Positions 22,009 through 34,068 of a stretch of DNA of 39,929 nt are shown piece by piece; the first letter of the stretch is position 1; each line of letters begins with the position of its first letter. The notes under the pieces were generated by a model. It ran no database searches and was not told the DNA's origin. It worked only from the letters and a program-made list of their open reading frames with translations. The position numbers were made by a program, and so were the translations under genes. The DNA comes from Proteiniborus sp. DW1 (GTDB lineage: Bacteria > Bacillota > Clostridia > Tissierellales > Proteiniboraceae): contig NZ_FMDO01000043.1 of the NCBI RefSeq assembly GCF_900095305.1, positions 1-39,929 on the forward strand, in the 5' to 3' direction.

Positions 22009-22017
22009 TGATATAAT
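22009..22017 (+). promoter_or_regulatory. Extended -10 promoter of the 22073 gene
   Basis: TGATATAAT at 22009-22017 is a perfect extended -10 (TGnTATAAT); the -35 region is not recognisable. Leader of about 50 nt, SD AAAGGAG at 22059-22065. Confidence 0.5.
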
Positions 22018-22072
22018 GACTAATGGAATATTATTACATATTTTACCTTGTAGATTTAAAGGAGAAATTAAA

Positions 22073-23641
22073 ATGAAATGCTCTATATTAAAAAATACTC
22101 TAGTAACTTTATTGTCACTGGTTATATTGACTTTAACCACTAAAACATCAACCTTGGCTGAAGATATAGTTTTTGGATTTACACCTGATGGAATATATCC
22201 TGTTAGTCAGACAGATATTTCATTGGTTTCTGAAGAAATTACCATAACACTGATTAGAAAAGACTACGGTATGGTGAACTGTAGATTTGATTTTAAGAAC
22301 AATGGAGAAGCCCAGTCAGTTGTTATGGCTGTTCCTGCAAGACTCAACGAAAAAACTACCAAGTGGACTCTAGAAGAATATTTGAATATCCATAACTTTT
22401 CAGTTTTTTATGAAAAAATTGATGGACCAGTGTCTGTAAAGCTTGTAGATTCAATCCCTAATCAGCCAATAAAGAATCATACCAACAACCAAACGAAATA
22501 CTCTAAATGGTATACCTTCACCATTGAATTCGATAAGAATGAGGAATTGAGCGTTTATACTATGTATAGCATAGAGTCTTTTTCTTTTGACAATATGTAT
22601 AATATGTTTATTAGCTATACACTTGAATCTGGAGCACTTTGGGAAGGTCAAATAGAGCATGCAAAAGTAATTTTTGATATTGGATACTATCCAATATATT
22701 CTGTCACAGATGTATTTCCAAATAATCTTTATAGAATAGAGGATAAAAAGCTTATATGGGAAAGAAGTAATTTTGAACCTGAATATAACCTTTCAATCAC
22801 ACAAAACAGTAATGACTATACTGACAGTAATATAGCCTGGCTTTCAAAAATAGGAGATACAGCAGGAGTCAAAGCAATAAAGGAAAGAATTACTTTTTTT
22901 GATACAAGTCCTCAAATAATAAGAGATAACAAACAAAAATACTTGGACCAATATGTTGATTTTATCCATAAAGATATTCTAAAAGCAATATATATAAAAA
23001 GTGCATTAGACCTGCCTCATGGTAGTGAAAATCCAAAAATCACAGATTGTCGTGTCCTTGAACATAAAGGTAATACATGGTGTTTTGAAATCGAGGCAAC
23101 TGACCCAGACTTAGATTTAATTCAATGCCATGCAGAAGTCGAAGGGGTTGACAATTATGTATACAAGAATAATTTTGAAATGAATTCTGTAAGCTATAAT
23201 CCAGAAAATAATCAGTTTATATCAAAATGTCACCTTGTAGTTGAAGAAGGTAACTTATTTAAAATTAGGTTTGTAGTTAAGGACTCAATAGGTAACTTTG
23301 ATACTAAAACATTTAGTATAAAGAAAGATGATACCATCTCACCCCTTGAGGAAGTTTCTGACACCGGAAACTTGTTGAATAACGATACGGTAGCTCTTGA
23401 AAGAGATAAGTGCGTGTCTAACGAAATAGCAGAAGTGAACCATATTGCTACTCCAAAAGTACCTGTACCTAATGTAGGCACAGAAATTCCCGTTGAAGAA
23501 ATCGGTAAAGTCGTATTGACTGAAAAAACATCTCCATCTTATCTGATAATTAAGGCAAGCTTAGCTTTCTTAATTTGCTTAGTCATCTTACTTTATTTGT
23601 ATGTAAAATTATATAAAGTCAAAAAAACTAAAAATAACTAA
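22073..23641 (+). CDS. Secreted, C-terminally membrane-anchored protein of unknown function
   Basis: A 522-residue protein. The start at 22073 has AAAGGAG seven bases upstream and gives a signal peptide (MKCSILKNTLVTLLSLVILTL..., cut near Ala-Glu-Asp at about 30). The N-terminal about 200 residues form a beta-rich region whose ISLVSEEITITL...GMVNCRFDFKNNGE...VVMAVPA pattern loosely recalls DUF4424. A middle part (about 270-330) is helical, and about 325-425 looks like an Ig/cadherin-type beta-sandwich (EIEATDPDLDLIQCHAEVEG). A Thr/Pro/Glu-rich linker precedes one TM segment (about 489-511) and a short basic tail, so it is a type I membrane protein facing outside. I do not recognise a catalytic motif. 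It is convergent with the polysaccharide operon, one base apart. Confidence 0.75.
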   Translation: MKCSILKNTLVTLLSLVILTLTTKTSTLAEDIVFGFTPDGIYPVSQTDISLVSEEITITLIRKDYGMVNCRFDFKNNGEAQSVVMAVPARLNEKTTKWTLEEYLNIHNFSVFYEKIDGPVSVKLVDSIPNQPIKNHTNNQTKYSKWYTFTIEFDKNEELSVYTMYSIESFSFDNMYNMFISYTLESGALWEGQIEHAKVIFDIGYYPIYSVTDVFPNNLYRIEDKKLIWERSNFEPEYNLSITQNSNDYTDSNIAWLSKIGDTAGVKAIKERITFFDTSPQIIRDNKQKYLDQYVDFIHKDILKAIYIKSALDLPHGSENPKITDCRVLEHKGNTWCFEIEATDPDLDLIQCHAEVEGVDNYVYKNNFEMNSVSYNPENNQFISKCHLVVEEGNLFKIRFVVKDSIGNFDTKTFSIKKDDTISPLEEVSDTGNLLNNDTVALERDKCVSNEIAEVNHIATPKVPVPNVGTEIPVEEIGKVVLTEKTSPSYLIIKASLAFLICLVILLYLYVKLYKVKKTKNN

Positions 23642-23642
23642 C

Positions 23643-25391
23643 TTATTTATCATTCTTTACCAACCTACAGAAATCGATTTTTTGTCCATCTTCAATCCTA
23701 TAGGTTTCAATTGTAATATCAAACCTTGTGGATTTAATTTTTATTATACAGGGCTTCTCTTCATAAAACTTACTATATTCTCTATTTAGCGTAACAGCAT
23801 CTCTCTTCATATTGCCTAAAAATAACCCAGCTGTGATATAAACTGTTTCTCCTTTAGCTTTCTTAATGATTCCTTCTGTTTCCACTCCTTCTTTCCCAAC
23901 ATAATATCTAGAATATGCTCTACCCCCGCTCAGAATAACATCTACATCTAATTCCTGAAACATCTCACCATATTCTCGCCTCATCTCCTCATTTTCCTGA
24001 AAAGTTGACGTATTCATCATAACAATAATCCATTTTCTGTTTCTTTCCTTAATAAGCTGTTCCATAAAGTCCCGATTTAATTTATAATCATTATTTATTA
24101 CATCCAAACTTATAAATATCATATCTGCATATGTCCAGTAGTGATTTTTTGCCTGTTCATCCTCTTTAGCTTCATGACTCTGCCCATAACAAGCGACAAT
24201 TGTTGGTATTTCTTTTGACTCCAATGCCGAACGAAATCCCATCTCTCTGCCCACTACTCTATTCTTAATGAGTGTATCTTCCTGCAAATTATTATCTTTT
24301 CCAATAACCAAGAAATCTGTTTCACCACATAAGTCTATTCCTTTTTGTAGCGTCTCCTGCCATAACTTCATCGAGCTTTGACCCGTCAACTGACTGAATT
24401 GTACAATCCCTGGAAATGCAAATATCGTTTCCTGTTTCTCTGCAGTATGGAACTCATAGATTTCTGAACCTTCTTTCCCTCCAATTTGAACCGCTCTATA
24501 AACATAATCTGTTCCAGGCTTAAGTCTGGTAAGAGTAGCTGTATTAATGAACATTCCGTCATATTTGGTCTTTTTACTTCCCATAATTACAGTTTTTGAA
24601 TAGGTAGAAAATGTGGACTCATCTACTTCTTCTTTAGTTCCTTCCATATATTCTATTTTGTAGGGTCTATCTGAGTCCGTCATCCAGTTTACTCCCAACT
24701 CATCTCCTTTATCTCCTATCAAAAGCATCATTCCTTTTGTATCTGGTACACTTTCCTCCTTTTTTGTTTCAAATATTCTCAAATATGGTAAATGAAAATA
24801 TAGTTTTGTACTGTCCACATCTTTACGATGTAATTCTATTGCTAGAACATTCAGCCCTTTCTTTAAATCGCTCATATCTGTAATATAAAATGTAGCTTCC
24901 TCTATAGTATTAACTGTATTTGATGCCCCCATATCCTGATTAGATAGATATCCTCCACTTGGTACATTTCCAGTATATACAATACTCCCATTCAAATAGA
25001 CAATTACAGCATCTGCATACCTAATATTACACTCCATATACTGAAAGTTATTTAGGTTTTCAACATTGAATTCATAGCGAAAAAATGCTGTAGATGATAA
25101 GTCATCACCTGTAAGGTCCTTTTTATAAATCCCCTGTTTTTCTTCCCATGCATCAGCATCATACTTTATTGTTGTCCATACATTCCCTACCCCTGGTTCT
25201 TGTCCTGTATCCATATATTTCCACGATGAATTTTCTGTTATGAGCTCTGACGATTGAATGCTTTCTTCCTTGGCTAACCACTTTTCCCATAAATTACTCC
25301 GTGCAGCAACTATCACAAATACACTAAAGAATAATAAAAGAACTAATAGTATTGAAACCCCTATTTTTATCTTCAGATCTTTCTGACTCAT
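23643..25391 (-). CDS. Membrane-anchored purple-acid-phosphatase-like protein lacking metal ligands
   Basis: A 582-residue protein with an N-terminal signal anchor (about 8-30; basic before, so the bulk is outside). Domains in order: a galactose-binding-like jelly roll (about 50-207, with AVIVYLNGSIVYTGNVPSG and GLNVLAIELHRKD), an FN3-like PAP N-terminal domain (about 220-315, ending LKPGTDYVYRAVQIGG), and a metallophosphoesterase fold (about 325-575). The fold is recognised by order and by VDVILSGGRAYSRYY (486-498), which corresponds to VDxVLxGHxHxYSR. Metal motifs are altered: the DxQ/DxH site reads FSQL, the GD site reads IGKDNN, GNH(E/D) reads YGQSHE, the later His block reads MMNTST, and GHxH reads GGRA. 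Probably a non-catalytic binding or scaffold protein. Last gene of the operon; SD AAAGGAG; no terminator is visible after it. Confidence 0.72.
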   Translation of the reverse strand: MSQKDLKIKIGVSILLVLLLFFSVFVIVAARSNLWEKWLAKEESIQSSELITENSSWKYMDTGQEPGVGNVWTTIKYDADAWEEKQGIYKKDLTGDDLSSTAFFRYEFNVENLNNFQYMECNIRYADAVIVYLNGSIVYTGNVPSGGYLSNQDMGASNTVNTIEEATFYITDMSDLKKGLNVLAIELHRKDVDSTKLYFHLPYLRIFETKKEESVPDTKGMMLLIGDKGDELGVNWMTDSDRPYKIEYMEGTKEEVDESTFSTYSKTVIMGSKKTKYDGMFINTATLTRLKPGTDYVYRAVQIGGKEGSEIYEFHTAEKQETIFAFPGIVQFSQLTGQSSMKLWQETLQKGIDLCGETDFLVIGKDNNLQEDTLIKNRVVGREMGFRSALESKEIPTIVACYGQSHEAKEDEQAKNHYWTYADMIFISLDVINNDYKLNRDFMEQLIKERNRKWIIVMMNTSTFQENEEMRREYGEMFQELDVDVILSGGRAYSRYYVGKEGVETEGIIKKAKGETVYITAGLFLGNMKRDAVTLNREYSKFYEEKPCIIKIKSTRFDITIETYRIEDGQKIDFCRLVKNDK

Positions 25392-25450
25392 ACCATCTAC
25401 TCCTTTAATACTTAAATAAACCGCTAAGAGTGCACAGCTCTAAAGCCTCC

Positions 25451-26881
25451 TTAATTAATACAGCCATTATATAGATCAGTAATATGAGTATCTAGAAAAG
25501 AAAATCTTTTATCAATGGCATACTTAAGCTTCTCAATAGCATCTTCATAGTTAACAGGATTGGGATCTGGTCCTCCTCCTGATATCATCATATCCTCTGA
25601 AAATGTATAGCCCCAAACTGCATAGTTTCTCTCTATTGCATCGCCAAGTTCTTCTCTGCCTTCTTCTATAAGTTGATAAAGATACTCTGTACTTAGTACC
25701 CCTTTTCTAAGTTCCCAATAACGTTGTACCACAAGATCTACAAAGCCTCTATCCTGAAGGAGTCTATTAAACCATGCCAGTTTCTGAAGAAAAAATTCAG
25801 AATAATCCTGACGAAACCACATGTAGTTATCATAAGCATTGTTAAAATCCCATACAGCAATTTTCAGTTTTCCTCCTAGCTCTTTATATACATAGGTAGA
25901 TAGGTTTCCTGCATCATTGTTCATAACTGCTTCGTTTAAAATCAGATAATCCACAAAAGCATCCACATCAATATACCTTCTATATCCAATTTTGGGATCA
26001 TCAAATTTGTCAGAATACAGAGCTTTTTCAAAATTACTTATATCCTCTTCAATCCACTGTCGTTGTGTTTTAGTCAAATCAGTTCTTGATGGGTATTCAA
26101 CATAAAGGTCATTGGATGTTTTTCCCGCTCTTTTTCCATAGTTATTAAGAGGATTATCTTCGGTTCCCTCTCTATCTCGTTTTACTATATACGCAGTTTC
26201 TCCACTTAGAAGTCCGAACTCACTCAATCGTAATCTGGATTCACCATTAGTTACAGGCTCCACTGCTAGATATACTCCTTTGTATTCTCCATTGACAAAT
26301 ACTTCGCAGAAACGAGTATCTGGGGCCCATTCGAAAATCTCACGTGACACCTGATAAACTATCCTGTTTCGTAGCAATGTCTTATCAAGGAAAGGTCCAT
26401 TTAGTACCCATTCACTATTAGCACCCATTCCTAAAAACTCATAATCTTTTGCCCCAGTTTTTCCTTGTTTTCTATAGAACTTTATTCTATATTGTTCTTT
26501 GTCAAACCATGAATAGGAAGATGCTCCTCTAAGATTAATAGTAATCCATGCTTCGTAATCTGGTGTGTCATATATATTTCTTTCAGTTCCATCTTCCATC
26601 TGGTTTAACACTGCAAGATGAGCCCATACTTTATTCTCCTTTGTGATTCTTTGATTTCTAGTATCAATATAAAGTACGGGAAGGTTAGTATCAAAACCTC
26701 CAAGACCATAGTACTCCATGTATTCTGCGTCAGGTTTTTTCCACTTTTTAACGGTTTTGCTTTTTAAGGTTGGAGATACCTTTGTCTTATTTAATTCCAT
26801 TCTGTTATATACGAAATTTCCCAACATTACAACAATAATAAATAATACTATCATAATTGACGAATATATCCTTTTCTTCAT
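25451..26881 (-). CDS. CotH-family kinase, membrane-anchored and extracellular
   Basis: A 476-residue protein with an N-terminal signal anchor (about 7-27) and the CotH kinase fold outside. Motifs: LRGASSYSWFDKEQYRIKF (117-135, the RGxSS...K..YRxKF block), LRNRIVYQVSREIF (170-183), EYKGVYLAVEPV (199-210), NNDAGN with D323, and IAVWDFNNAY with D345. The last usually reads WDFDxxxG; the first Asp is kept and the second position is Asn. CotH proteins are atypical secreted protein kinases, first known from spore coats. Here the gene belongs to a polysaccharide operon with a VTC domain and DUF4956 gene, an association I recall from other Firmicutes. Start fixed by AGGAGGGG; 12 bases after the DUF4956 stop. 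Confidence 0.85.
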   Translation of the reverse strand: MKKRIYSSIMIVLFIIVVMLGNFVYNRMELNKTKVSPTLKSKTVKKWKKPDAEYMEYYGLGGFDTNLPVLYIDTRNQRITKENKVWAHLAVLNQMEDGTERNIYDTPDYEAWITINLRGASSYSWFDKEQYRIKFYRKQGKTGAKDYEFLGMGANSEWVLNGPFLDKTLLRNRIVYQVSREIFEWAPDTRFCEVFVNGEYKGVYLAVEPVTNGESRLRLSEFGLLSGETAYIVKRDREGTEDNPLNNYGKRAGKTSNDLYVEYPSRTDLTKTQRQWIEEDISNFEKALYSDKFDDPKIGYRRYIDVDAFVDYLILNEAVMNNDAGNLSTYVYKELGGKLKIAVWDFNNAYDNYMWFRQDYSEFFLQKLAWFNRLLQDRGFVDLVVQRYWELRKGVLSTEYLYQLIEEGREELGDAIERNYAVWGYTFSEDMMISGGGPDPNPVNYEDAIEKLKYAIDKRFSFLDTHITDLYNGCIN

Positions 26882-26903
26882 CAGCCGCCCCTCCTATCGG
26901 CTG
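26882..26903 (-). promoter_or_regulatory. Hairpin presenting the cotH-like SD and the upstream stop codon in its loop
   Basis: CAGCCG (26898-26903 on the minus strand) pairs with CGGCTG (26882-26887) around a 10-base loop that holds the UAG stop of the DUF4956 gene and the SD AGGAGGGG of the cotH-like gene. The layout suggests coupling of CotH translation to termination on the DUF4956 frame. Confidence 0.4.
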
Positions 26904-27574
26904 ATATCATCTAACTGTTCTACAAGATTCACTCTTTTAACACCTTCAATTCTCATAAGTCTTTGTGAGATATCAATTAGATTCTCTTCATTTGCTTTTG
27001 TTAGTACATTTTCTTTCACACTATAAATCAATTCACATCCATCCTCTGATACATTTTTCATAGTCTGGTGTACTCCTTTGCCAAAATGACTTTCCACAAC
27101 AGCCTCAATCTGATTCTGTGAATCTATAGTTCCTTGAATAATCAATAGTTGTCTTTGGTCCATAACAGCTTGTTTCGTGAGTAAGAAAAACAAAAACAAA
27201 AATACACTTCCTATTCCTATGAGACTGTACTGAGAAACACCACATCCAATTCCAACCGCAATACTCCAGAAAATAAATGTTGCATCCCTAACATCCTTTA
27301 CTGCTGTACGAAAACGAATAATAGAAAGAGCACCAACCATACCTAGAGACAATGCAACATTATTGCTGATAACACTCATAATCATGGTAGTAATAATAGT
27401 AATCGCACCTAATGATACATTAAATTTTCTGCTATATGCTGTTCCTGAGTAAGTCATCCTATAAACAAACATTAAAAAAAATGCTGCCATAATTGCTACA
27501 ATATTATTTAATACAATAGTTGCTATGCTAATAGTTTCAGCATTGCTTAAGTTTTCAATAATAAATTCTCTCAT
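26894..27574 (-). CDS. DUF4956 membrane protein
   Basis: A 226-residue protein with four or five TM segments in the first 135 residues (about 17-39, 54-72, 74-88, 98-113, 116-134) and a soluble, probably cytoplasmic, C-terminal alpha/beta domain (about 140-226). The hallmark block SLGMVGALSIIRFRTAVKDV followed by RDATFIFWSIAVGIGCG (76-112) identifies DUF4956. In many bacteria the gene stands next to a VTC-domain gene, as here (18 bases apart). Function unproven; a role as the membrane channel or partner for the VTC protein is a reasonable inference. SD GAGGGGA. Confidence 0.87.
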   Translation of the reverse strand: MREFIIENLSNAETISIATIVLNNIVAIMAAFFLMFVYRMTYSGTAYSRKFNVSLGAITIITTMIMSVISNNVALSLGMVGALSIIRFRTAVKDVRDATFIFWSIAVGIGCGVSQYSLIGIGSVFLFLFFLLTKQAVMDQRQLLIIQGTIDSQNQIEAVVESHFGKGVHQTMKNVSEDGCELIYSVKENVLTKANEENLIDISQRLMRIEGVKRVNLVEQLDDISR

Positions 27575-27592
27575 GTTTTCCCCTCTTTTTTG

Positions 27593-28273
27593 TTATATAT
27601 ATATTCTTGCTTTTGAATATTTACTAAATGACTCAGCAAGATTATCAATATACTGTACAATCTGCTTTAGTGAATATGGTACAAAATCGTTATACTTTAT
27701 TTCTAAAATGCCGGCATCCCCTTTAATTAAAGGAACATATGAAAGCTCTTCAGAAAACAATCCATATGGATTTTTAGTTGCTTTTACACTCGTATCGAAA
27801 GTAATTCGAACGTCACTAGCTGGATAAAGATATGCTGTTCTATAATATTCAACAATAGTTTTTGGAGTATATCCCCCCTGCACCATTTTTACATATATCC
27901 TTTTTGCAATATCTTCTTCACGAGCCAACAAGAAGTCATATTTATGTGCTTCCATCATAAGTGCCTCATCCCTAGTAATAGACAAGGAATATTTTTTTCC
28001 ATCCATATTACTTTTACACTTGTACTCAAGCTTTGCATGCTTAGTATCAGTCGAATAAATTCTAACTCGAATTTTTCTTTTTTCCATTACCCCATCAAGA
28101 TTATCATATAAATCATGATTATTTAAAGAATCATAATACTGGGAACGAACCATATAGGTTCCGTTATAACCATTTCTGTCCTTTTCCATTAAAACGTCTA
28201 AATGTTTCTGAATCCTTAAAAATTCAACCTTGGTAATTACATATTTAATTTCTTTTCTAAACACTGTTTTCAT
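27593..28273 (-). CDS. VTC-domain protein (polyphosphate polymerase superfamily)
   Basis: A 226-residue soluble protein with the triphosphate-tunnel fold of the catalytic part of yeast Vtc4. Basic and acidic tunnel motifs are all present: FRKEIKYVI (5-13), KRKIRVRIY (65-73), LEYKCKS (82-88), EYYRTAY (142-148), RITFD (156-160) and LEIKY (190-194). Vtc4 makes polyphosphate from ATP; bacterial members are annotated the same way, but activity has rarely been shown. No TM, so cytoplasmic, probably working on the DUF4956 protein. Overlaps the upstream gene by 17 bases. Confidence 0.88.
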   Translation of the reverse strand: MKTVFRKEIKYVITKVEFLRIQKHLDVLMEKDRNGYNGTYMVRSQYYDSLNNHDLYDNLDGVMEKRKIRVRIYSTDTKHAKLEYKCKSNMDGKKYSLSITRDEALMMEAHKYDFLLAREEDIAKRIYVKMVQGGYTPKTIVEYYRTAYLYPASDVRITFDTSVKATKNPYGLFSEELSYVPLIKGDAGILEIKYNDFVPYSLKQIVQYIDNLAESFSKYSKARIYI

Positions 28274-28907
28274 ACCGTTTCCCTATCCTTTTAATCAAAT
28301 ATATAAATCTAGGCTGATATATCTTTTCAAATAAGCTTTGTTCCTTATTGCTCAACATCTGCAGAATAAATCCTATCATGATAATAATTGAAACTATAAA
28401 ACCTCCATTATCAATTATAAGGTAATTTATCAAAAATTCATAAATTATAATAGCACCCCATAATGAAGTCATCAAACATATCATAATAACAGGAACATAC
28501 GCCATTGAAGCTATCACCAGTATTCCCAGCATAAGAGAAAACCATAAAGAATAAGTATGAATCCATCCTGTAGCTATCGCAACCAGCGCACAAATGATAA
28601 ACCCTCCTAGCCAATGCCACCTATAAGCAAAAAAAGCTAACACTGTACCTAACACTGCAAAGGTCGTAGTAATAGTCCCCCAGTCTGTTTTGCCTGCCAT
28701 TAAAAAAATACTAATAAGTGTTACTGCCATAAACACTAACACTGAAAATATCGCCCTATAGATCTTAAACCCAAAAAAGCAGGCCAAAACACCAATTATT
28801 AATAAAATGATAGCTAAAAAATCTTCATTTTCTTTTACCACTCCTAATATCCCAGTCTCAAGAGCAAATAAAAAAAATAACTCTTTCACTAACTCTATCA
28901 CAAGCAT
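28257..28907 (-). CDS. Polytopic membrane protein, DUF4203-like
   Basis: A 216-residue very hydrophobic protein with about seven TM segments between residues 30 and 190 and a basic C-terminal tail. The stretch LIIGVLACFFGFKIYRAIFSVLVFM and the following Gly-rich helices recall DUF4203/TMEM198-type proteins; this is a weak resemblance. The ATG at 28907 is four bases from AGAAGG; a GTG at 28901 has better spacing. It overlaps the VTC gene by 17 bases and follows the DHHW-like gene by eight, so it is firmly part of the operon. Function unknown. Confidence 0.65.
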   Translation of the reverse strand: MLVIELVKELFFLFALETGILGVVKENEDFLAIILLIIGVLACFFGFKIYRAIFSVLVFMAVTLISIFLMAGKTDWGTITTTFAVLGTVLAFFAYRWHWLGGFIICALVAIATGWIHTYSLWFSLMLGILVIASMAYVPVIMICLMTSLWGAIIIYEFLINYLIIDNGGFIVSIIIMIGFILQMLSNKEQSLFEKIYQPRFIYLIKRIGKRYENSV

Positions 28908-28915
28908 CCTTCCTT

Positions 28916-30049
28916 CTATTCTAGATTTACTAAATTCAAAGTCTTTGTAAACAGCTTATTTCCAGAAAGAACACCAATATTTTCTGCTTTCTGAACAAGA
29001 ATAACATCTGATACATCATACTCTCTGAAAATACTTTTAAACTGATTCTGATCATATTCATAATTAGCAATATTAACTACATAAACTTTCTCATAATAAG
29101 TCGTTAAAAAAGGTACTATTATCTGGCCACTTGAATCGCACAACAACAAAGCTGTTTTATTCTTTTTTTCTTCACTCTTGCCTTCTCCTTCTGCCACAGC
29201 CGTCATATAGCTGCCCCCAATAAACGCTGCCTTTCCAACTCTGGACTTAGAAACCATTTTTATCTTTTCTGTTATAATACTACCATTCCATTTTTTTTGC
29301 CTAATCGCCCTGTTTTTACTACCAGAAGGCAGATAATAAAAAATTCGGTCCTCAGGTATACCTTCCAATTCTTCTATAACCTCTTGCCCCAATCTATAAT
29401 CCTTCATTGCATCGATTTTATCTATTCCCTCATATCCATGATACATATGCTCCTCATACTCTTCTAAGGAAATATTAGATAGTCCCATGCTCTCAATAAT
29501 AAGCTTTGAACCATAGTAAGCACCTCTTGCTGTCCAGCTATCATCAGTACGGAAAAACAGATATTCCTCGCTATGCTCCTTCAAAATAGGAAGTACATCT
29601 AGAAGCTGCATATTCTCAGGAATCACGCTCTGAAGTTCTAAAAGAAAAGTCCTATAGTTCCCTACTTCTTCTGAATAACCATCCTCCCATACCATCCTTC
29701 CTGGTATAGGAACTATATAACCCCCCATATCCTGTGGGATCATCTTAGACAAACTCAATAATATCTCTTTTCCGGTTTCTATATTTTTCCTACTATATTT
29801 AGGTTTCTTTAAAATTCTATCTGTATAAAATACATATTTTTCATCCTCATAGAAAACGGTCTTCGATGGTTCTTGATCTAGGGGAAGACCATATGAGTTA
29901 TATTCTTCTTTTATTGAGATTTGTGCTTTTCTCAAAACTGGGTCTTCACTCTGTGTTGCATTTACCAGATAATCAAGAATAAAAAGCATAAGAAGGCTCA
30001 ATAGCACTCCTAATATTCTAACTAGCACTATTAATATTTTTCTCTTCAT
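28916..30049 (-). CDS. AlgX/AlgJ-like DHHW-family extracellular protein with altered active site
   Basis: A 377-residue protein with an N-terminal signal anchor (about 7-28, basic before) and an extracellular SGNH-hydrolase-like domain. The family block normally reading TDHHWT..GAYY is TDDSWTARGAYYG here (168-180): D169 is kept, the His two residues later is S171, and W172 is kept. The nucleophile block KDSYA...PFL reads LLLCDSSGQIIVPFL (301-315) with D305-S306 retained. AlgJ and AlgX O-acetylate alginate; clostridial DHHW proteins are unassigned but often lie in polysaccharide loci. Without the His an ordinary Ser-His-Asp triad cannot form, so the protein may be a binding factor. Starts three bases after the upstream stop. 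Confidence 0.72.
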   Translation of the reverse strand: MKRKILIVLVRILGVLLSLLMLFILDYLVNATQSEDPVLRKAQISIKEEYNSYGLPLDQEPSKTVFYEDEKYVFYTDRILKKPKYSRKNIETGKEILLSLSKMIPQDMGGYIVPIPGRMVWEDGYSEEVGNYRTFLLELQSVIPENMQLLDVLPILKEHSEEYLFFRTDDSWTARGAYYGSKLIIESMGLSNISLEEYEEHMYHGYEGIDKIDAMKDYRLGQEVIEELEGIPEDRIFYYLPSGSKNRAIRQKKWNGSIITEKIKMVSKSRVGKAAFIGGSYMTAVAEGEGKSEEKKNKTALLLCDSSGQIIVPFLTTYYEKVYVVNIANYEYDQNQFKSIFREYDVSDVILVQKAENIGVLSGNKLFTKTLNLVNLE

Positions 30050-30052
30050 ATC

Positions 30053-31684
30053 CTACGCCTCGCTCTGTACCGTCTCTTTTTCTGGGATATGTATTTCTTC
30101 TAGATTTTCACAATCCTTAAAAGCACTACTGCTAATCATCTCCAAACGACTTGTGAATACTATTTTTTTTAAATTGATACATCCCCGAAAACAATGGTCT
30201 GTTAAAATCCTCAAAGCAGAATCCTCTTCAAAATACAGGTTCCTTAAACTAGTACATCCTGCAAAAGCTGCTGCATCTAACACTTCCAAGGATGCGGGAA
30301 TTTCAATCTCTTCAAGGGATTTGCAGTTTTCAAATGCAGATATTCCAATCCTTTTAAGATGTTGCTTCCCAGTGAGGGATATCTCTTTAAGTTGTTCACA
30401 ACCAGCAAATGCAAAGTCTTCTATTTCTTCTATAGAATCTGGTATCTCCACTTTCTTTAGTGAACTACACTGAAAAAACATGCTTTTCTGTATCCTTCTA
30501 GCACCCTCAGGAATCACAACTTCTTCTAAATCTTTATGAAAGCGGTAGCCTTGTTGATCTACACCCTCGTAGTCTTTCAAATCTTTAAATCGCAAGACTT
30601 TTTCTTTCTTTCCTTCCTCCAAATAAGTATATTCCTCTGGCTGAGCCTTATTCGGTGAGGATAGGATAACTCCTCCTTTTTCGCAGCTAACATATCCAAA
30701 TATAAAGGTTCCAGGTTCAATTGTAATTGTTCCACGGGCTATTAACGAACTTATAGCACCTCTTTTCCCAATAACTGCTCCAGTTTCTAAGTATACATTT
30801 TCCTGAGAAAAGACATTCCCGATTACACATGAATTCCTCCCCAAAAAAATATCTTTTTCTGCAAAAATATTTCCAACGACAATTGCTCCATCAAATAATC
30901 GAACACCTTTATTAGAACGAATATCACCTTTTACAATTATATTTTCCGTAACACTGACATTCTTCCATGATAATATTGAATAGTCTACAATTCCTTCTTC
31001 GTTTACCATCTCATTGCTAATATATCTAATGTTTTTCTCCTTTGCTGTCTGAACAGGAAGGCGATAAATTCTCGGATCTTTACCCTCTGTTGGATCCATA
31101 ATTAGCCCAGGATATTGACCAATATAGATTTCAGGAGCAAATAACCTTTGGAAGCGACAATTCTGTCCAATACTCATTCTAACTCCGCTGGAAGCACTGA
31201 TGCCTAAATCACAATCATCATAGATTGCAACCGTTCCTTCTGCATCTATCCAACGTATTACTTTCGTACCTTTTCCAAGAATAATATTCTTCTCACTATA
31301 CATAGCTCTTAACTTTACATTATCTTTAATCCAAACATTCTGCCTGCCATAGATTTCTTTTTCAAATACAGTTCCATCTGGTGTTCTAAAATCTTTATCC
31401 AGGCAAATTACAAGCTTCTCTACGGTATCCGGATATATATCTTGCTTATCTCCATCAATAAACTCTTCTTTCTTGGACAAGTATATCTCATTATTCTCTA
31501 CTCCTTGTAGATTTTCCCTAATCAGTGATGAAAAAGACTTTCCAAAATACCTAGCATCCCGAATCTTATCTTGATTGATAAAAAGGACTTCTCCTTTTCT
31601 CTTTTTATAATACTGATTTGCTACAAGAATCGGTAAAATCAAAAGAAGTATAAACACAATCGCAAATATCCATATTTCTGTCAT
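30053..31684 (-). CDS. TM-anchored bactofilin-like/LRR_5 fusion protein
   Basis: A 543-residue protein. One TM segment (3-22) is followed by YYKKRKGE, so by positive-inside the rest is cytoplasmic. Residues about 100-340 form a beta-solenoid of short hexapeptide-like rungs of the polymer-forming/bactofilin type (VKGDIRSNKGVRLFDGAIVVGNIFAEKDIFLGRN...). Residues about 384-538 are six or so BspA-type leucine-rich repeats of about 23 residues (LKKVEIPDSIEEIEDFAFAGCEQL pattern, each with AF..C..L). LRR_5 repeats are mostly known from surface proteins, so a cytoplasmic placement is unusual. Likely a scaffold that positions the synthase or other operon products at the membrane. SD AGAGGTG eight bases from ATG. 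Confidence 0.78.
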   Translation of the reverse strand: MTEIWIFAIVFILLLILPILVANQYYKKRKGEVLFINQDKIRDARYFGKSFSSLIRENLQGVENNEIYLSKKEEFIDGDKQDIYPDTVEKLVICLDKDFRTPDGTVFEKEIYGRQNVWIKDNVKLRAMYSEKNIILGKGTKVIRWIDAEGTVAIYDDCDLGISASSGVRMSIGQNCRFQRLFAPEIYIGQYPGLIMDPTEGKDPRIYRLPVQTAKEKNIRYISNEMVNEEGIVDYSILSWKNVSVTENIIVKGDIRSNKGVRLFDGAIVVGNIFAEKDIFLGRNSCVIGNVFSQENVYLETGAVIGKRGAISSLIARGTITIEPGTFIFGYVSCEKGGVILSSPNKAQPEEYTYLEEGKKEKVLRFKDLKDYEGVDQQGYRFHKDLEEVVIPEGARRIQKSMFFQCSSLKKVEIPDSIEEIEDFAFAGCEQLKEISLTGKQHLKRIGISAFENCKSLEEIEIPASLEVLDAAAFAGCTSLRNLYFEEDSALRILTDHCFRGCINLKKIVFTSRLEMISSSAFKDCENLEEIHIPEKETVQSEA

Positions 31685-31716
31685 CCTTTCAGCACCTCTT
31701 TCATGATTTGCACTTT

Positions 31717-32997
31717 CTAAGCTTCAGCCTCTACACTTCTTATAGATTCTGTAAAGCGCTTCGTTTTTGCCCATTTTACCTTACGCCCTGTTAAAGTATC
31801 TGCAACAGCATCCATAAATCCAAGACTAATATACCACATATAAAAATAATAATTGAACATAAGCAAAGGTAACAAAAGGGGTTCTCCTTTTACACCATCT
31901 AGCATCAAACCTGTCCCAATTTCATAAAAGGGTGCAAAGTTTCCGAAAGAAGTATAAGCCCCAATAAATAGAAGCACCCACCATCCAGCAAGTATATCCA
32001 TTTCTCCAAGGAAAAACAAGATAAAAGAATCTATCTGTCCAAGTGCCAAAAAAAATGGTACTGCATATACAAATAATAATAAAATCCCATCTATCTTTTC
32101 TCGAAAATTCATATTTGGTGTCGTTATCACTTTGCTTAAGTAACGAAATAGTACCTGATTATGCCCTCTAGCCCATCTTCTTATTTGCTTACCTCGTACT
32201 TCCCATGTTTCAGGTGCTTCCTCATAGCATTCTGCTGAATTTGCATAAATAACTTTCCAACCATTTGTATATAGCCGATATGTTAGCTCTGTATCTTCAG
32301 CGAGAACCAACGGATTAAAGCCTCCCAATTCTATAATTAAATCTTTCCTAAATCCCCCTACCGTTCCACCATACTGGGGTATAGTCTTAAGATTGTATCT
32401 TGCTTGTTGGTCAACCTGATAACCTCCACATCTTTCAAGATTAATTAGTCGAGTTAATAAGTTTTTATTAGTATTATAAGGAATTACTCGTCCCATAACA
32501 GCCCCTACTTCTGGGTCCTGAAATGCAATTGCTAATTGCTTCAGCATATCTTTCGCTGGGCGATAATCTGCATCAAATACAATAATAATCTCACCTTTTG
32601 CCAACTTCATAGCATCATTTAATCCGACTGGCTTTCCTCTATCTGCGCAGTCTCTATGCAAAGGTCGAATAAATTCATATTTGTCGTGATATTCGTCCAA
32701 GAGCTCCTTCGTCCTATCTGTAGAGTTGTCATTTATTGGAATAATTTCAAGTCTGTCTCTGTCATAATCACACTTTAGAAGTGACTCTAGCACATACCTC
32801 AACACCTGTTCTTCATTGTGCATAGGAATTAGCACAGAAATAGATGGCATCTTAGTTGAATAAATATCATTGTAATAAATTCTTTGCTTTCCAAATAAAC
32901 GGTTATATGAAAAAACAAAGTGTCGTATCGCGTAGATTGTCATAACAGCAATCACAAAAAACATGTAGCCTCGCAAAATCGCTATGACCATAACCAT
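31717..32997 (-). CDS. Processive family-2 glycosyltransferase (polysaccharide synthase)
   Basis: A 426-residue membrane protein. N-terminal TM about 4-27, cytoplasmic GT-A domain about 50-285, then three or four TM/interface helices (about 302-345 and 375-395). Catalytic motifs: D90 in NDNSTD, DxD at 142-144 (VFDADYRP), acceptor-base region AED with D235, and QxxRW at 271-275, the set that marks processive synthases such as cellulose, hyaluronan and poly-GlcNAc synthases. The tail has GRKVKWAKTKR, often seen in this group. It should polymerise a nucleotide sugar and pass the chain through the membrane. Sugar not predictable. No PilZ domain is present, so no direct c-di-GMP control is visible. 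Second gene; the ATG at 32991 has better SD spacing than 32997. Confidence 0.88.
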   Translation of the reverse strand: MVMVIAILRGYMFFVIAVMTIYAIRHFVFSYNRLFGKQRIYYNDIYSTKMPSISVLIPMHNEEQVLRYVLESLLKCDYDRDRLEIIPINDNSTDRTKELLDEYHDKYEFIRPLHRDCADRGKPVGLNDAMKLAKGEIIIVFDADYRPAKDMLKQLAIAFQDPEVGAVMGRVIPYNTNKNLLTRLINLERCGGYQVDQQARYNLKTIPQYGGTVGGFRKDLIIELGGFNPLVLAEDTELTYRLYTNGWKVIYANSAECYEEAPETWEVRGKQIRRWARGHNQVLFRYLSKVITTPNMNFREKIDGILLLFVYAVPFFLALGQIDSFILFFLGEMDILAGWWVLLFIGAYTSFGNFAPFYEIGTGLMLDGVKGEPLLLPLLMFNYYFYMWYISLGFMDAVADTLTGRKVKWAKTKRFTESIRSVEAEA

Positions 32998-33767
32998 TCC
33001 CCTCTCCCTGTTTTGGTATCATATAATTTTATCATTTTATTCATATAAATACCATATATAGCTACTAGATATAAAAAGTCAAAAAACGGTCCTAAAGCAA
33101 AAAATAAAAGAGCCATATAAATAATCGAAAATTCTTCAATAATATACAAAAATAGAACATAACGTATTGTACCAAATATTAGAGAATATAGTAACACAGC
33201 AAAAAAAGCAGTGACCCTATACAGCACTCCCTTAGCTCCCAGTAGCCCTGTTATTAATCCCGTCAATATAATAAAAGTGAGCCATATTCCGATTTGTTGT
33301 TTCATATATAAAATTGAGTACTGAAAAGCTGTGTATGGAAAAAAGTTTGCTGCAAAGATAAAGTAAATACAATTGATAATATGTACCAAAAACATTATAG
33401 ACAAATAAACAGAAATAGGTTTTCCTTTTCTACTTCCTGTACTTAGGAATATTACAAGTGAAAGAACAACTATCAAATTTAGAACAACAAAAGAAATTTC
33501 AGGATATACTGTAGGCAGTTCTACAAATTCTATAGTCCCTAATATTGAAAAAGAGTCTTCCCTGATATAAAGAGGGATTCCAGGATACACTTTTCCAAGT
33601 ATTCTAACTGCTAGTTTCGACATTAATCTTGTAATATTTCCTATGTTAAAAATAAATATTGTAACAACCGGAATGACAAGTAGACATAGATATAAAACAC
33701 TCTTTATCAAACTTTTCTTTAATCGTCTATATGTTCTGGTATAATAAATTTTGTCTTTCACTTCCAT
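32982..33767 (-). CDS. Polytopic membrane protein, first gene of the polysaccharide/CotH operon
   Basis: A 261-residue protein I do not recognise. Six predicted TM segments (about 22-42, 92-110, 118-140, 160-180, 186-206, 212-242), a basic N-terminus (YYTRTYRRLKKS) and an extracellular loop of about 45 residues after TM1. There is no Cys, so no exosortase-like active site. The SD AGGAGG nine bases from ATG is strong. It overlaps the GT2 synthase gene by 16 bases, so the two are translationally coupled and it is likely an accessory subunit for synthesis or export of the polymer. Confidence 0.65.
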   Translation of the reverse strand: MEVKDKIYYTRTYRRLKKSLIKSVLYLCLLVIPVVTIFIFNIGNITRLMSKLAVRILGKVYPGIPLYIREDSFSILGTIEFVELPTVYPEISFVVLNLIVVLSLVIFLSTGSRKGKPISVYLSIMFLVHIINCIYFIFAANFFPYTAFQYSILYMKQQIGIWLTFIILTGLITGLLGAKGVLYRVTAFFAVLLYSLIFGTIRYVLFLYIIEEFSIIYMALLFFALGPFFDFLYLVAIYGIYMNKMIKLYDTKTGRGEWLWS

Positions 33768-34068
33768 AAAAAACTTCCTCCTATATTTTCACTTGTAGTT
33801 GGATAAGAGAATATAATTAAATTTTTTTGCTTCATAGTCTATAAATTACTTGTTTTATGTTCTATAAAAAGATAAAAAAATCCTTCAACTGTAATTAATT
33901 TGTACTATTTTTACGAAAGTGCAGATGATTAATTAGCCAATCAAAACTTTTAGTATCTCAATCTAAGACATTAGATTTTTCATCTATTAAGTTTTTTAGT
34001 AACTACTTCCTATCGAAAAAACAACCAAGAACTTAATCTTGATTGCTTTTAATAATTGTGGTATTTCT
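33768..34068 (-). promoter_or_regulatory. 301-bp gap: promoter region of the polysaccharide operon
   Basis: Minus strand TTGAAG (plus 33883-33888), 16-nt spacer, TATAGA (plus 33861-33866) is the best sigma-A candidate, leaving a leader of about 87 nt. I looked for c-di-GMP-I and -II riboswitch cores and found none. The right end holds the DUF4438 terminator. No other gene is seen. Confidence 0.4.
34016..34045 (-). terminator. Rho-independent terminator of the DUF4438 gene
   Basis: Minus strand CAATCAAGA-TTAAGT-TCTTGGTTG (nine pairs with one G-U) followed by TTTTTT. It lies 24 bases past the stop codon at 34069. Confidence 0.85.

Follow-up and report, generated by a model that had tools for sequence, protein, structure and literature searches.

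Genes coding for CotH, poly-phosphate polymerase, DUF4956 and DUF4832 proteins have been described as adjoining Gram-positive pel operons (Whitfield et al. 2020, PMC7112168), and the C. perfringens locus NELoc-2, as given by Lepp et al. (2010, PMC2879425) and listed again in PMC11677781, comprises VTC, 'tubulin', CotH, a HEAT protein and 'chitin synthase'. In S. intermedius, Pel is still made when the Pel-linked DUF4956, VTC or CotH gene is deleted, and the three genes are therefore accessory there; according to the same source, the DUF4956 mutant produces more Pel and the CotH mutant less, and both show >50% less aggregation in artificial sputum medium (PMC12345266). Yeast VTC couples the synthesis of polyphosphate (polyP) to its translocation, the channel being lined by basic residues (PMC9911596). 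In the literature searched, DUF4956 is rarely named, and we met with no biochemical work on bacterial proteins containing a VTC domain apart from the S. intermedius deletion, for which no effect was reported (PMC12345266). Here we describe a nine-gene operon at positions 23643-33767 of contig NZ_FMDO01000043.1 of Proteiniborus sp. DW1 (assembly GCF_900095305.1), the 39,929 nt of which constitute the sequence examined ('the window'). It joins a GT2 glycan synthase to a VTC, a DUF4956 and a CotH gene (hereafter 'the trio'), and we suggest, judging from sequence comparison and with a probability of roughly 0.55, to read it as a synthase-dependent secreted-polysaccharide operon carrying an accessory surface-phosphate module.

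Synthase and trio genes of the operon

The nine open reading frames (ORFs) are all located on the minus strand, with the coordinates of a first-pass annotation of this DNA, and are separated, in the order of transcription from gene 1 to gene 9, by -16, 32, 3, 8, -17, 18, 12 and 59 bases. That annotation had taken the small gaps and overlaps as the mark of a unit; ORFs, gaps and motifs are indeed as it described them, and distant lineages repeat the gene order, so that chance alone does not account for the unit. The evidence thus supports one conserved operon, for which a single transcript is predicted. The genes of the synthase half and the trio are as follows (here and below, Pfam assignments of window genes are above curated cut-offs unless stated otherwise).

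32982..33767, minus strand: gene 1 (MP261), membrane protein of 261 aa, presumed partner of the GT2, kept beside it in relatives (no Pfam or NCBIfam match)
31717..32997, minus strand: gene 2, GT2 glycan synthase, 426 aa (PF00535, E 1.7e-30)
27593..28273, minus strand: gene 6, VTC domain with a tunnel of the polyphosphate-polymerase type, 226 aa (PF09359, E 9.2e-29, 101.1 bits, cut-off 23)
26894..27574, minus strand: gene 7, DUF4956 membrane protein, 226 aa (PF16316, E 3e-15, 56.8 bits, cut-off 30.6)
25451..26881, minus strand: gene 8, 476 aa, CotH kinase domain, presumably anchored in the membrane and located outside (PF08757, E 3.7e-56, 191.4 bits)

The motifs which the first-pass annotation had named in these proteins are present in each of them. 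In the GT2, the D, DxD, D and QxxRW motifs can be read as FDADYRP, AEDTELT and QIRRW and are invariant across alignment A5. The VTC protein has no hydrophobic segment, and its profile aligns with yeast Vtc4 (3g3q) at E 1.7e-7 over profile positions 3-165, with the region around E191 aligning only as a weak second stretch. The tunnel residues R6, K10, K67, R69, R71, E83, K85, K87, K94, R145, R156, D160, E191 and K193 are found in 100% of 106 homologues and, in our reading of the alignment, R69, R71 and E191 would correspond to R264, R266 and E426 of Vtc4, the residues changed in the yeast complex (PMC9911596). The match of gene 7 to PF16316 bears out the DUF4956 signature; a basic residue at position 87 and Arg89 occur in 109 of 109 members and adjoin a hydrophobic segment. 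Finally, the CotH domain aligns with 5jd9, and D323 and D345, present in 93% and 100% of 49 homologues, correspond, as judged from the alignment and from their spacing, to D228 and D251 in CotH of B. subtilis, where mutants of either residue are inactive (PMC7821199); both catalytic aspartates are kept.

The join of synthase and trio in other genomes

DUF4956 was matched in 146 of 291 sampled Clostridia genomes. For the neighbourhood survey we used 109 loci, namely 100 Clostridia DUF4956 loci, hand-picked from the listed matches (mostly one per genus, with some second copies), 8 further loci on named contigs, and that of the window; in what follows, L-numbers denote surveyed loci and G-numbers surveyed genomes. 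VTC is present in 106 of the 109 loci and CotH in 51. A carbohydrate-binding cluster of the Cthe_2159 type, so named from one tested member, is found in 28 loci (e.g., L052:7545-9428) and never shares a locus with CotH. A GT2 accompanies the trio in two architectures, which we call type A and type B; their GT2s are 24-26% identical.

We define type A as gene 1, GT2, a bactofilin-like gene, VTC, DUF4956 and CotH in that order, as observed in the window, L004, L006-L009, L146 and L148 (with only the C-terminal part of gene 1 in L148); L005 is alike without a match for gene 1. The fuller order is gene 1, GT2, bactofilin/LRR, DHHW, MP216, VTC, DUF4956 and CotH, followed by an unassigned ~400-aa protein in five loci and by a purple-acid-phosphatase (PAP) gene in three, and MP216 is absent from L146 and L148, where GT2 and trio are present. 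A wider type A synthase set comprises twelve loci (the window, L003-L009 and L146-L149), of which L003 and L149 end at a contig edge. Type A is rare: it occurs in 0 of the 100 class-sampled loci, and the profile of gene 1, which added L146-L149 to the set, has matches in 4 of 398 genomes of the phylum and in 2 of 391 of the class, the own genome being counted in both. Among 60 genomes of the order, including two congeners, a close relative of the GT2 (E 1e-60 or better) is found in the own genome only, and the operon therefore looks accessory. L147 carries gene 1, GT2, bactofilin, a deacetylase domain, the ~400-aa protein and a UDP-N-acetylglucosamine (UDP-GlcNAc) 2-epimerase, and none of VTC, DUF4956 and CotH despite its synthase half. 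Hence, the two halves are separable.

Type B has the order VTC, DUF4956, CotH, a ~720-aa protein, a HEAT-repeat protein and a GT2 of ~468 aa, and several of its loci also carry GGDEF or EAL genes. It is found in 9 of the 100 loci (with the HEAT gene not seen in L085), and L117 and L137 are two more, cut by contig ends. The ~720-aa protein, which has no Pfam match and which we take, by eye, to resemble a TIM-barrel hydrolase, was compared by profile with the ~400-aa type A protein, with DHHW and with PAP as possible relatives, in each case with a negative result. In one type B operon, an ORF for an S-layer-anchored polysaccharide deacetylase sits between VTC and DUF4956 (L119:7652-9406). Close relatives of the type B GT2 (>500 bits) occur in 18 genomes, in 13 of which they lie within 7 kb of DUF4956, in 3 on another contig, and in 2 without a DUF4956 match; for the nine weaker matches (<460 bits), none of which is shown to be linked, the corresponding figures are seven without a DUF4956 match, one on another contig and one whose place is not listed. 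Two distant relatives, G036:C1:141176-142543 and G047:C119:27932-29311, contain one in-frame stop each (TGA and TAA).

The join is mirrored in the CotH sequences. One CotH cluster of 19 loci has a GT2 in 16, the other three (L003, L117 and L137) ending at contig edges, compared with 0 of the 32 other CotH loci (Fisher p 1.4e-10, a value which, like the other Fisher value given below, overstates certainty since the loci are related and not independent). GT2-profile matches in L050 (on the other strand) and L116 (weak, and without CotH) were not counted as linked to the trio. To use this cluster as a marker of GT2-linked loci is new here. A quick tree of VTC with 108 rows places all type A rows in one clade (SH-aLRT 95) and those of type B in another (97). 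Two loci of the set, L003 and L008, are labelled Chitinophagales and Micrarchaeota; their VTC groups among Bacillota rows, and the contigs are probably mis-binned.

A third kind of synthase also accompanies the trio. PelG was sought in the 40 genomes carrying the 42 class-sampled CotH loci and in five others, and adjoins the trio in two of the 42 (L112 and L139); the third PelG found, that of G273, lies far away from the trio. The analyses of the S. intermedius study did not find the trio outside the Pel locus (PMC12345266), and our survey differs from them, because only 2 of 42 loci adjoin PelG. Co-occurrence of the GT2 half and the trio half in other genomes had been chosen beforehand as the test of the first-pass annotation: the join is conserved, in two architectures, though the halves can part (L147).

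The polymer and the putative partner of the synthase

The nearest NCBIfam model to the GT2 is PgaC/IcaA (TIGR03937), with 128.5 bits compared with an equivalog cut-off of 422.3. Of the 12 loci in the type A synthase set, 5 carry a gene for a UDP-GlcNAc 2-epimerase, compared with none of the 101 others, which are of unequal length; the gene lies at most 340 bases from the operon in L004, L005, L009 and L147 and ~8 kb away in L146. Polysaccharide deacetylase domains are found in L147 (23.9 bits, cut-off 23.1), L119 and L105. Because epimerase or deacetylase genes join several relatives, the polymer is probably of the N-acetylhexosamine type, perhaps with N-acetylmannosamine; the own genome encodes two UDP-GlcNAc 2-epimerases outside the operon.

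The AlphaFold2 model of gene 1 features some six long helices together with a beta hairpin, at a mean predicted local distance difference test (pLDDT) score of 81.6, and has no Foldseek match in the PDB at E 0.001 or better; its best VIA match (Z 6.6, root mean square deviation 3.7 over 80 residues) is in the usual range for helical models. The position beside the GT2 and an invariant Arg had raised the idea of a relative of exosortase XrtG (TIGR03110), which we rejected: hhalign against six XrtG sequences gave a probability of 0.1, and the XrtG profile has no match in the own genome. A 501-aa frame of L156 appears to fuse an XrtG exosortase with a GT2, the GT2 part being judged by eye. Likewise, the idea, formed by eye, that the ~400-aa protein is an (alpha/alpha)6 hydrolase was not upheld: Pfam gave only a sub-cut-off match to Dbr1_C in 1 of 5 members, and the PDB sequences gave none.

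The remaining genes and the boundaries of the operon

The other four genes, and the non-coding region in front of gene 1, are:

33768..34068, minus strand: presumed promoter region, non-coding, 301 bases, the gap to the next gene
30053..31684, minus strand: gene 3, 543 aa, with a hydrophobic segment at the N-terminus, a bactofilin-like solenoid and LRR_5 repeats (LRR_5, E 1.8e-46)
28916..30049, minus strand: gene 4, DHHW/AlgX-like domain, presumed outside, 377 aa (PF14286, E 6.1e-18, C-terminal half of the profile)
28257..28907, minus strand: gene 5 (MP216), polytopic membrane protein, 216 aa (no Pfam or NCBIfam match; modelled)
23643..25391, minus strand: gene 9, PAP-like protein, presumed outside, 582 aa (PF16656, Pur_ac_phosph_N, E 4.5e-11)

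Against bactofilin (PF04519), gene 3 scores 17.5 bits, below the cut-off of 27.9, and we therefore call it 'bactofilin-like' only; its homologue in L147 passes with 31.4 bits. A single ORF encodes both the bactofilin-like part and the DHHW domain in L007 and L008, on either side of a hydrophobic stretch, which fits the division into an inside solenoid and an outside DHHW protein drawn by the first-pass annotation. The description of gene 3 as a solenoid is in need of amendment: the protein has one N-terminal hydrophobic segment, next to the weak bactofilin-like match and the LRR_5 repeats.

In the DHHW domain, the D-x-H-W motif is missing in all nine readable type A loci and kept in 26 of 29 control homologues (Fisher p 1.3e-6). 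The motif was sought in the whole ORF of the controls with D or N in first place; all 26 matches start with D, and 24 read DHHW. At the motif position the window has TDDSW and L148 has NPHW, which a looser rule, with N allowed first, would let pass. In the type A operon of L148, a single ORF (L148:4739-7252) comprises an MBOAT-like region (26.9 bits, cut-off 27) and the DHHW domain, which suggests an O-acetyltransferase past of the latter. Gene 4 thus looks like a catalytically dead pseudo-SGNH domain. Gene 9, for its part, has no Metallophos match in Pfam, and the metal-ligand motifs of PAPs (GD, GD, GNH, H and GHxH), kept in L006 and L105, are all replaced in the window; it looks like a catalytically dead pseudophosphatase. 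In L003 the C-terminus of the PAP is shortened. With the active-site motifs of both proteins lost, the idea of a working DHHW/PAP set outside the cell is weakened.

Homologues of MP216 are found in 8 of the 109 loci. Its model (mean pLDDT 78.6) has no fold match in the PDB, and a relationship with TMEM198 (PF13886) was dismissed, since that family has no match in the own genome either.

The nearest upstream gene is on the same strand, 301 bases off, and the downstream neighbour is convergent, coding for a protein of 541 aa (22016-23641, plus strand) without Pfam or NCBIfam match. Rfam at gathering thresholds gives zero matches in the whole window, which speaks against a cyclic di-GMP (c-di-GMP) riboswitch upstream of the operon. 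In L004, a GGDEF-EAL protein follows right after the type A operon (L004:14507-17335) and hints at control by c-di-GMP there. A division of the operon by an internal promoter or terminator was considered as well, and the scans gave nothing informative either way: no terminator-like sites are listed in 31685-31716 or 25392-25450, and the promoter scan returned 50 sites compared with a shuffle mean of 57.4, so that little meaning attaches to the promoter-like site which the scan placed in front of the PAP gene (25494-25466).

Proposed mechanism and rival explanations

Based on the evidence collected here, it is tempting to propose that synthesis and extrusion of the polymer are the work of the GT2 together with gene 1, and that the solenoid inside and the pseudo-SGNH domain outside form one membrane-spanning scaffold, as put forward because the two genes are fused in L007 and L008. 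VTC would make polyP from ATP and, together with DUF4956, pass it into or across the membrane in a manner akin to the coupling in yeast VTC, while CotH would phosphorylate or bind a target outside and thereby tune the amount or the attachment of the polymer. The trio is probably a portable add-on for surface polymers and not a part of the polymerase, since it accompanies at least three different synthases (the type A GT2, the type B GT2 and Pel). One may go further and suppose that in many bacteria, here Clostridia and their relatives, a polyP polymerase of the VTC type works with DUF4956 to pass polyP across the cytoplasmic membrane, and that at the surface, via CotH or a Cthe_2159-type protein, this polyP phosphorylates, charges or cross-links the secreted polysaccharide, the module being portable among two kinds of GT2 and Pel; in this full form we regard the idea as doubtful. 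The overall interpretation given by the first-pass annotation is supported in part: the conserved operon, the tie of a secreted-polymer synthase to VTC, DUF4956 and CotH, the VTC tunnel and the CotH aspartates have stood. It is weakened with regard to polyP as the phosphate donor of CotH and to a working DHHW/PAP set outside, and also by the separability of the halves and by the accessory role of the trio in S. intermedius.

Several observations weigh against reading the operon as a polysaccharide operon with an accessory phosphate module. The GT2 is far below every NCBIfam cut-off and does not name the sugar, the window operon contains neither an epimerase nor a deacetylase gene, which occur only in some relatives, and the usual hydrolase partner of the synthase is not found in it. 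The ~400-aa protein located 3' of CotH in L004-L007 and L009 was not found in the own genome by a search without positive control. To these are to be added the synthase half without trio in L147, the non-independence of the loci underlying the Fisher values and, in S. intermedius, the lack of a significant change reported for the VTC mutant (PMC12345266). One might suspect that two unrelated units happen to be co-transcribed, one of them a polysaccharide synthase and the other a unit for phosphate storage or phosphate stress (VTC, DUF4956 and CotH) which does not act on the polymer. Not only L147 but also the many loci with the trio, or the VTC-DUF4956 pair, and no synthase are in accord with this explanation; it is nevertheless unlikely, considering that the join is present with two GT2s 24-26% identical and with Pel, that one CotH cluster is confined to GT2-linked loci, and that the CotH and DUF4956 mutants of S. 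intermedius alter the amount of Pel (PMC12345266).

The same mutants, with Pel raised upon deletion of DUF4956 and lowered upon deletion of CotH (PMC12345266), the proposal of Whitfield et al. that CotH may regulate Pel by phosphorylation (PMC7112168), and the weak resemblance of DUF4956 to MgtC seen in the Pfam search could also point to VTC and DUF4956 as a sensor or regulator of the synthase, responding for example to the nucleotide or phosphate state and not making polyP, with CotH phosphorylating proteins of the synthase complex. The preservation of all tunnel residues aligned with Vtc4, including the catalytic Glu position, in every one of the 106 homologues fits an enzyme better, and we consider such a sensor quite improbable. 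In the explanation favoured by the first-pass annotation, VTC and DUF4956 would export polyP, which CotH would use outside as phosphate donor to phosphorylate the glycan or a protein bound to it. The scarcity of ATP outside cells, the preserved VTC tunnel residues and CotH aspartates, and the adjacency of the trio genes in types A and B are all as this explanation would have it. However, we know of no kinase of the CotH fold that uses polyP, and VTC-DUF4956 is common without CotH: with VTC in 106 but CotH in only 51 of the 109 loci, and with a Cthe_2159-type protein near by in its place in 28 others, donation to CotH is unlikely to be the general role of the pair. Since, moreover, VTC deletion in S. 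intermedius is unlike CotH deletion (PMC12345266), we consider this explanation improbable.

The association of the trio with at least three different polymer synthases leads one to predict a general action on secreted polymers. Such a prediction would offer a direct way to ask what bacterial VTC makes and where the product goes, for a partner family, DUF4956, that is widespread in Clostridia and nearly always accompanied by VTC, yet rarely named in the literature searched, and it could then assign a role to the unexplained genes beside Pel and in NELoc-2.

Comparison with known systems

With the yeast VTC complex, the operon shares a tunnel domain with aligned residues and a membrane partner with conserved basic residues; it differs in that gene 6 is a single-domain protein whose partner is DUF4956 and not the Vtc transmembrane domain, and in that the system is known here from its sequence. 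The PNAG synthases PgaC/IcaA provide the model nearest to the GT2, but the score is far under the cut-off, and the pga/ica partner genes are absent from the operon as judged by Pfam and NCBIfam. Gene 4 is related to the O-acetyltransferase-type SGNH domains of AlgX/DHHW proteins through its Pfam match and the MBOAT-like fusion in L148, and departs from them by the absence of D-x-H-W in the readable type A loci.

The Gram-positive pelDEADAFG operons (PMC7112168, PMC12345266) have the same trio beside a synthase-dependent exopolysaccharide operon, with an accessory role shown there by deletions (PMC12345266). Their synthase, however, is PelF/PelG and not a GT2, and PelG (PF16933) has no match in the genome of the window, so that the operon described here is not a Pel operon. 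Closest in content is NELoc-2 of C. perfringens (CP4_0460-0468), for which the published gene list groups together VTC, 'tubulin' (in the position that DUF4956 has here), CotH and a GT2, matching the type B loci. The GT2 of that type B set is 24-26% identical to the GT2 of the window, and a HEAT-repeat protein and a ~700-aa protein replace gene 1, bactofilin/LRR, DHHW, MP216 and PAP. Hence, the operon of Proteiniborus sp. DW1 is a novel variation on the loci known from NELoc-2 and from the Pel-linked trios.

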